From: Halorussus sp. MSC15.2
GTDB lineage: Archaea; Halobacteriota; Halobacteria; Halobacteriales; Haladaptataceae
Direction of reading: 5' to 3'
DNA length: 64,000 bases
Assembly: GCF_010747475.1 (NCBI RefSeq)
Contig: NZ_VSLZ01000002.1
Span: 62,001-126,000 of the forward strand
Below are positions 36,510 to 38,030 of the stretch, piece by piece; within the stretch, counting starts at the first letter, position 1, and each line of letters begins with the position of its first letter. The position numbers and the translations under genes are program-made. The notes under the pieces were generated by a model. That model had not been told where the DNA came from. It was given only the letters and a program-made list of their open reading frames with translations, and did no database searches.

Positions 36510-38030
36510 TTACTTCGCACTCGGCGCTCGGGACCCGCCTTCGACGCCCGAGAATTCGAAGCGCGCCCCGCCCGACTCGCTCTCGGTCACGGTACAGTCC
36601 CACTCGTACGTCTCGGCGAGCTGCGCGACGAAGGTCAACCCGAGACCGATGCCGGCGTCGTCGGTGGTGTGTCCGGCCTCGAAGACGGCGTCGCGGTCCG
36701 CCGCCGGGATGCCCGGCCCGTCGTCGGCCACGTAGAACCCGCCGGAAGACTCGCTCTGCTCGTCTTCCGAGCCTCCGCTCGCTTCGTCTTCTCGCGGGCT
36801 TTGCCCGCTCGAACGGTCCGAGGGACTTCGTCCCTCGCTACTCGAGGAGACGTCTTCGAGGTCGCCGACGCGGACGGTCACGTCGTCCCCGCCATGCTCG
36901 ACCGCGTTCCGGAGCAGATTTTCGAGGAGATGCCAGATGTGGACCGGGTCGGTCCGAATCGTGCGGTCGGCCTCGACGACGAGGTCTGCGCTCTCGGGCG
37001 CCACTTCCGCCCACGCCTCCGCGGCGGCGGTCGCGAGCGCCACCGACTCGCACTCGGCGTTCGAGTCGCTTCCCCGGGCCGTGACGAGCAACACGTCTAT
37101 CATCTCCTCGATGCGGTCGAGCGCGGTATCGACCTTCTCGGTGGCGGTCTCGTCGCCCTCGACCGCCGACTGGAGGTATATCTGGGCGATGGTGAGCGGG
37201 TTGCGGAGTTCGTGGGCCAGCATGCTCGCGAACGATTCGAGGCGGTCGTTCTGGCGCTGGAGTTCGCGTTCGCGCTCGCGGAGACTCACGGTCGCGGTCG
37301 TTCGGTCCCGGAGCGAGTCGAGCATCCGGTCCACCTCGCGGGCGGGCCGGTCGGGACCGAAGAACTCCTCGGGCGGCGTGTAGTAGGCGTTGTGACAGAC
37401 CGTGTTGTCGTAGACGAGGTGCGGGTGCGTGCGGACGACGTCTCGCAGGACCTCGGCCGGGAACCTGTTCCGGTTGTACTGGCAGAGCGCGATGCCGTTC
37501 TCGTCGGGGAGGAGGCGGTTGAGTTTCCCCTCGTACTCCACGAGGTCGGCGATTTCCGGGTCGTCGCCGAAAATCCACGTCATCTCGCCCGTGACCCGGA
37601 GCGCCTCGTACTCCTCGGTGGCCGCCTCGATTTCGGCCGCGAGGAACGCAATCATGTCGTCGGGGTCGAACCCGCCGTTCCGACAGTACGTGTCCTGCTT
37701 GGTGTGGAGGGTCAGCGCGCCCGACTCGCGGGCCGCGTCCGCGTCCACGCCCGCGTCGCGCATCGCCGCCAACACTTCCGTCTTCGAGTTCTCGTCGGCG
37801 ATGTAGAGGCATCGCTCGTTCCGGTCGAGTCCCTGTTCCACGAAGGGAATCGCGGCCGAGAACTGCTCCTCGGTGGTCTCGTAGACCAGCGCGAGGTGGT
37901 CGTGGGAGTCGTGGTCGCCCAGCGGTTCGACCGGCCCGCGGAACGTCGGACTGTTGCGTAACGCCTCCAGTCCGCTCTCCAGTCCGAGTGTCTTCCCCTC
38001 GTCGGAGGGCGTGAGTGTGTGTTGGCTCAT
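36510..38030 (-). CDS. MEDS-domain sensor histidine kinase
   Basis: The 506-residue cytoplasmic kinase has an N-terminal MEDS (methanogen/methylotroph DcmR) sensory domain (residues ~35-225, from DHLALVYETTEEQ to NTVCHNAYYTPPEEFFG), a short coiled coil (SLRERERELQRQNDRLESFA), the H-box MLAHELRNPLTIA with phospho-His, the N-box HIWHLLENLLRNAVEHGGD and G-boxes VADDGPGIPAADRD and AGIGLGLTFVAQ. Between N- and G-boxes it carries a ~35-residue Ser/Glu-rich insertion whose DNA contains two perfect palindromes. No response regulator adjoins it. Confidence 0.93.
   Translation of the reverse strand: MSQHTLTPSDEGKTLGLESGLEALRNSPTFRGPVEPLGDHDSHDHLALVYETTEEQFSAAIPFVEQGLDRNERCLYIADENSKTEVLAAMRDAGVDADAARESGALTLHTKQDTYCRNGGFDPDDMIAFLAAEIEAATEEYEALRVTGEMTWIFGDDPEIADLVEYEGKLNRLLPDENGIALCQYNRNRFPAEVLRDVVRTHPHLVYDNTVCHNAYYTPPEEFFGPDRPAREVDRMLDSLRDRTTATVSLRERERELQRQNDRLESFASMLAHELRNPLTIAQIYLQSAVEGDETATEKVDTALDRIEEMIDVLLVTARGSDSNAECESVALATAAAEAWAEVAPESADLVVEADRTIRTDPVHIWHLLENLLRNAVEHGGDDVTVRVGDLEDVSSSSEGRSPSDRSSGQSPREDEASGGSEDEQSESSGGFYVADDGPGIPAADRDAVFEAGHTTDDAGIGLGLTFVAQLAETYEWDCTVTESESGGARFEFSGVEGGSRAPSAK
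36794..36837. repeat. two perfect palindromes inside the kinase gene
   Basis: GCGGGC-TTT-GCCCGC (36794-36808) and CGAGGGAC-TTC-GTCCCTCG (36819-36837) lie 10 nt apart. Both would form strong hairpins with 3-nt loops in DNA or mRNA. They encode part of the Ser/Glu-rich linker in the kinase ATPase domain and keep the frame. They look like an inserted palindromic element; I did not see the same pair elsewhere in the window. Confidence 0.6.

Follow-up and report, generated by a model that had tools for sequence, protein, structure and literature searches.

The palindromic feature studied here is likely to be a single copy of a short mobile DNA element, palindromic and without an enzyme gene of its own, that forms a family in haloarchaea. 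It lies in a minus-strand open reading frame at positions 36510-38030 of the window (the whole 64-kb stretch of Halorussus DNA that was analysed), which encodes a 506-aa histidine kinase carrying MEDS, HisKA and HATPase_c domains. Two perfect palindromes, GCGGGC-TTT-GCCCGC (36794-36808) and CGAGGGAC-TTC-GTCCCTCG (36819-36837), are separated by a 10-nt spacer and stand between the N-box (36894-36920) and the G1 box (36705-36737) of the kinase, the reading frame of which stays open across both. No second copy of either palindrome occurs within the window. An earlier note, made from sequence alone, had reported this pair at 36794-36837, and its sequences, positions, spacer, placement and open frame are all confirmed. 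The extent of the element required correction as these coordinates span two hairpins only. Sequence comparison defines a 54-nt mobile unit, TAGC...GAGAAGA (36787-36840), nested in an outer palindrome with a 5' arm GACGTCTCCTCGAG (36841-36854) and a 3' arm CGAAGCGAGCGGAGGC (36771-36786), and the whole shared insert measures 118 bp (36737-36854) and includes at its 3' end a third hairpin (CGGAAGAC...GTCTTCCG, 36743-36769). Within the unit, hairpin 1 (36819-36837) has 8 bp, a 3-nt loop and a stem that covaries across copies, and hairpin 2 (36789-36813) reads TTC-GA-GCGGGC-AAA-GCCCGC-GA-GAA, with the 36794-36808 palindrome at its core and an invariant tandem G.A; all of these features are read on the minus strand.

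The extra-loop codons VSSSSEGRSPSDRSSGQSPREDEASGGSEDEQSESS (aa 394-429; 36744-36851, minus strand) are absent from the kinase orthologue of genome G027, a protein 59-62% identical that has no loop at all and reads GDLPD-GDGFFV where the window kinase has 35 additional residues. In the AlphaFold model, strands 385-391 and 430-436 enclose residues 394-428, the pLDDT of which is below 50, such that the insert is predicted to form an unstructured, low-confidence loop within a beta-hairpin and flanked by two confident strands, in a model that is modest overall (mean pLDDT 56). Separately, in four related Halorussus kinases (L103, L104, L112 and L113) the N-box is duplicated by in-frame tandem repeats (NAVEHGSTSSRPxxDDAVEHGS type), another kind of in-frame expansion at nearly the same kinase position as the palindromic insert.

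The clearest indication that the element moves is a nearly identical copy in an unrelated gene of Halorussus aquaticus: the window insert and the insert in an AMP-binding enzyme (ligase) gene of that species (L055/L064) share 99.2% identity over 118 bp, and the two host genes are unrelated. The insert in a MutS-like gene is instead common by descent to the window's own species and H. aquaticus (97% over all 497 bases compared). A small zinc-ribbon gene carries the unit in three Halorussus genomes, while about 20 relatives read straight through the site (for example GAGGACGCC); this one clean empty site, GAGGA^CGCC, shows no duplication beyond an ambiguous GA. Several genomes, the window's own included, retain a GATAGCGCGG-like remnant there, which is possibly a deletion scar but could be coincidence. 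The unit also occupies one common site in plasmid merA genes from four families (Halorussus, Natrinema, Salinirubellus and Salinigranum; L415-L418), the encoded MerA proteins being 82-83% identical, and CobN of Natronococcus occultus holds another copy. Recurrence, spread to non-homologous genes and empty orthologous sites are thus established, on evidence that is comparative, no insertion event having been observed directly.

Recurrence was assessed at increasing distance from the window. In the window's own genome, a 72-base query returned three strong matches outside the window copy, one locus at 97% identity over 72 bp, a second at 92% over 60 bp and a third at 85% over 56 bp, as well as weaker ones, the copies having linkers in common and not stem sequences. 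The pattern GTAGC-N15-30-ACCRTKCGARCGG matched six times in the 4.4 Mb of this genome versus no matches for reversed-pattern controls, which is far beyond chance. Four of the copies are in genes, on the same strand and in the same frame (the kinase, a MutS-domain protein, a LarC-type nickel insertion protein and TrpC), and two further copies are intergenic; the TrpC copy has different stem sequences with pairing kept, and its hairpin 2 bears two extra hairpins. At the family scale (28 genomes) there were 28 pattern matches versus two control matches, and at the order scale (392 genomes, 95 genera) about 243 strict matches versus about 33 control matches, in 115 genomes and 44 genera, the two order totals having been summed by hand from the table. 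A covariance model built from 44 copies found matches in all 28 family genomes, with up to about 26 in one genome, and all genomes listed with a match in a phylum-wide sample belong to one order, that of the haloarchaeal host. No phage match to the element was found; 50 pattern matches in viral contigs score nothing with the covariance model and are therefore ascribed to chance. Two loci, L078 and L125, were likewise treated as chance, being pattern matches without structure. Some tallies count copies sharing a locus by descent separately.

These results bear on the main proposals of the earlier note. Its reading of the feature as a protein-tolerated palindromic element held, on the strength of the recurrence and of the G027 orthologue without the loop, and neither outcome that it said would refute that reading was met: the palindromes recur elsewhere, both in the window's own genome and across the order, and not every orthologous kinase has a loop. 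Of the two behaviours it left open, spread between genes held, and a structural repeat at the mRNA level only failed in view of the almost identical 118-bp copy that another species carries in a gene not homologous to the kinase.

The conservation of the unit is structural. Its consensus is TAGC-[hairpin 1]-GGACCRTKCGA-RCGG..CCGY-GAGMAGA, with hairpin 2 in the form (K)C-GA-RCGG...CCGY-GA-G(M), and whole elements range from 54 to 118 bp. The tandem G.A of hairpin 2 is invariant in all 44 copies, and the pairs flanking it covary, one as T-A in 19 copies and G-C in 25, the other as G-C in 32 and A-T in 11. The stem covariation score is 0.279 versus 0.104 for shuffled alignments, none of 500 shuffles scoring as high. 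As sites were found with a pattern built on conserved linkers, linker conservation is partly a product of copy selection; the search pattern does not explain the stem covariation. The unit begins at TAGC, and the base preceding it follows the insertion site, so ATAG occurs beside GTAG. No Rfam covariance model matched, none up to E=1.

Two further arrangements were seen among the copies. The TrpC locus (L010/L058; C3:215861-215988 in the window's own genome) and L285 (G017) carry a second two-hairpin module of about 45-48 nt (GAGGCGGT...ACCGCCTC, GAGACGGC...GCCGTCTC) that lies inside the hairpin 2 loop in two unrelated genes, also in frame. Intergenic copies of the TGCGA...GAGCAGA class (L056, L057, L066, L079, L151-L155, L160 and L230-L234) have a T-run on one side, an A-run on the other and an outer stem, for example CCACCTTTTT/AAAAAGGTGG, and could be terminators of convergent genes or complete elements.

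The organization of larger elements follows from a nesting rule, by which a unit enters the hairpin 2 of a resident unit at CGAR^CGG. CGG directly follows the unit at 45 distinct sites, and an outer hairpin of at least 6 bp lies upstream at 58% of these versus 3% at control positions. In addition, the base before the unit pairs with the outer Y at every one of the 36 sites having a downstream outer CCGY-GAG foot (30 G-C, 6 A-T). The R-Y match together with the upstream outer hairpins therefore identifies four-hairpin elements as a unit inserted in a unit, exactly at CGAR^CGG of hairpin 2. A general preference for hairpin loops was not supported, as a stem of at least 4 bp surrounds the junction in 18% of joined sites versus 26% of controls, but single sites do lie in hairpin loops (L060, L219, L250, L260 and L313). 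At L309, L310 and L315, units are found in several genera within a conserved palindrome, CCCCACCCT...AGGGTGGGGTAGTT, which by inspection may be an IS605-type terminal palindrome.

Copies inside genes follow a strict pattern. When both flanks were scored for codon usage, every one of the 32 in-gene units so scored was on the sense strand, 27 in the SSEGRSPSDRSSGQSPRED frame and four in a shifted frame upstream; a possible antisense in-gene copy, L148, was not confirmed under stricter scoring. Of 31 in-gene copies, 30 have a unit length divisible by 3, versus 15 of 32 copies without coding flank (p=1e-5). Among the six frames, only the SSEGRSPSDRSSGQSPRED frame gives a peptide that is net acidic and free of hydrophobic residues, and one other has a stop. 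The preferred reading of this bias in strand and frame is the survival of harmless insertions, although an insertion bias is not excluded. The hosts include IleRS, a second class I synthetase, TrpC, MutL, the MutS-like protein, LarC, CobN, plasmid merA, a GatB/GatE-type amidotransferase (GatE), FBPase, an arginase-family protein, a Trm5-like methyltransferase, an HhH-GPD glycosylase, CofC, and members of the HIT and chlorite dismutase families, with in-gene status for most loci resting on codon usage and open frames and not on annotation. Alignment of IleRS and TrpC with solved relatives puts the insert between aligned blocks, and no core segment is missing. The element is thus tolerated in frame, in essential genes too, as a disordered acidic loop. 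In two species the element also provides a gene's last codons and stop, ...RVLDSEER-stop (L238 in G016 and L258 at C3:309874-309954 of the window's own genome).

We propose a mechanism in which copying of the unit would proceed by way of a folded DNA form, either single-stranded or cruciform, an inference, and the folded copy would be inserted by an unidentified trans-acting enzyme, also inferred. Insertion is mostly after GA or GAR, without visible target duplication, the favored target being the 5' arm of a resident copy's hairpin 2 (CGAR^CGG), so multi-hairpin elements are nested units. Within genes, only insertions on the sense strand, in the SSEGRSPSDRSSGQSPRED hydrophilic-peptide frame, of a length divisible by 3 and in a surface loop would survive, with selection the inferred cause of the strand and frame bias; the host protein would afterwards bear a disordered loop, and elements may be lost by small in-frame deletions. 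No transposase partner or other mobilizing enzyme was identified among the Y1 and TnpB candidates tested. A Y1 transposase gene is absent from six of 18 element-bearing genomes (G059, G032, G017, G145, G237 and G278), the first two of which hold 12 and 10 strict copies; no good element match flanks any of 30 Y1 loci or 30 TnpB loci; and no OrfB_IS605 was found in G002, a genome with about 15 copies. A bolder reading, toward which we lean slightly less than against, is that these elements are a haloarchaea-wide class of mobile hairpins moved by a transposase not yet known, which prefers their own hairpin foot CGAR^CGG and so generates nested arrays, and that throughout an archaeal order they have repeatedly extended core enzymes with in-frame loops.

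One alternative would make the unit an archaeal REP, mobilized by a Y1 (HUH) transposase of the REP-associated type, or else a PATE originating from an IS200/IS605-type element. In its favor are the GTAG at the hairpin 1 foot of most copies, as in bacterial GTAG REPs (PMC3733652), the hairpin-rich ends without visible target duplication, the known presence of PATEs in haloarchaea (PMC3119063) and the copies within palindromes resembling IS605-type ends (L309, L310, L315). However, the insertion site contributes the G of GTAG and copies elsewhere have ATAG, the six genomes without a Y1 gene include several with many copies, and neither the Y1 and TnpB loci nor the OrfB_IS605 search in G002 revealed a partner. 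We consider this origin unlikely and reject it as a general explanation. It is similarly unlikely that nested and in-gene copies arose by recombination or gene conversion between existing copies with no dedicated insertion mechanism; identical short blocks could seed recombination and one site shows compensating stem changes (L065/L212), but a primary insertion is needed wherever no copy was resident, as at GAGGA^CGCC in the zinc-ribbon gene. Less probable still is a selected functional structured RNA or regulatory module (for instance a protein-binding or mRNA-processing hairpin) with co-opted gene copies. The strong covariation and invariant tandem G.A helix, the T and A runs flanking intergenic copies, and a core more conserved than flanking third codon positions in several orthologue pairs speak for it, but the absence of an Rfam match, the patchy presence at orthologous sites, the unrelated host genes with no common function, and an in-gene length and frame governed by coding and not by RNA spacing make it very doubtful. 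Ordinary low-complexity acidic coding sequence, with palindromes arising from chance or codon bias in GC-rich DNA, finds support in the different hydrophilic loops nearby in other Halorussus kinases but is refuted by the 92-99% DNA identity between unrelated genes, the six matches versus none for reversed controls, and the covarying stems.

Comparison with known systems returns us to the favored reading, a family of mobile palindromic elements. Most known palindromic elements tolerated within proteins come from Rickettsia and its relatives. Like Rickettsia palindromic elements (RPEs; Ogata et al. 2000, reviewed in PMC10969869), the haloarchaeal units are short palindromic elements placed in frame in many unrelated protein genes, where they add a tolerated peptide, and their mobilizer is unknown. 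In contrast to RPEs (about 150 bp, Rickettsiales), the unit is 54 nt, self-nests at a fixed site and has stems that covary strongly from genus to genus; its likeness to RPEs is drawn from form and behaviour. RPEs have a CGTC tag at one end (PMC3733652), which we looked for: on the reverse strand CGTCTTCTC often precedes hairpin 2, but its CG belongs to the flank. The analogy with RPEs drawn in the earlier note therefore holds in part, as the element works like one but is not shown to be one. The small mobile repeats SMR-A and SMR-B of Haloquadratum walsbyi (about 80-110 bp, defined by terminal inverted repeats; PMC3119063) have no transposase, no target duplication and an unexplained mobilization; for the unit, likewise without an identified transposase, whole elements measure 54-118 bp and the one clean empty site shows no duplication beyond an ambiguous GA. 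The Haloquadratum repeats insert into near-terminal palindromes of other palindromic elements, as the unit does in resident units and, by inspection, at L309, L310 and L315. Those repeats are reported to target mobile elements (PMC3119063), whereas the unit forms in-frame parts of host proteins, and the resemblance is drawn from size, arrangement and behaviour. With GTAG REPs and REPtrons (PMC3733652), some of which have intragenic copies in bacteria, the unit shares multiple copies and a GTAG-like tag beside a stem-loop, but this GTAG is matched only because most insertion sites end in G. The tag is not intrinsic, there is no link to an associated Y1 tyrosine transposase (RAYT), and the unit is archaeal and consists of two hairpins with an internal tandem G.A helix. 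Subterminal palindromes and a lack of visible target duplication are also shared with PATEs and haloarchaeal IS200-IS605 ends (PMC3119063), but the unit does not share its ends with a TnpA/TnpB element, no association with either being found in the 60 loci tested. The RepRanger survey of REPs covered intergenic regions only (PMC12306157), and we found no description of this family, or of archaeal in-frame palindromic elements, in the open-access literature searched, subscription papers being outside its scope. The family is thus likely a new archaeal variant that works like RPEs and resembles the Haloquadratum repeats.

An element of this kind pervades the haloarchaea, in core genes (IleRS, GatE) and on plasmid genes (merA, four families). 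It accounts for some of the unusual disordered segments inserted in haloarchaeal enzymes, a caution that such loops need not be salt adaptations, and its movement, tolerance and function can be tested directly in genetically tractable haloarchaea. Its precise self-nesting site and covarying structure provide handles for finding the mobilizer. Genome G016 holds five near-identical nested copies at different loci (L230-L234), which suggest recent amplification and make it a good place to look for that activity.
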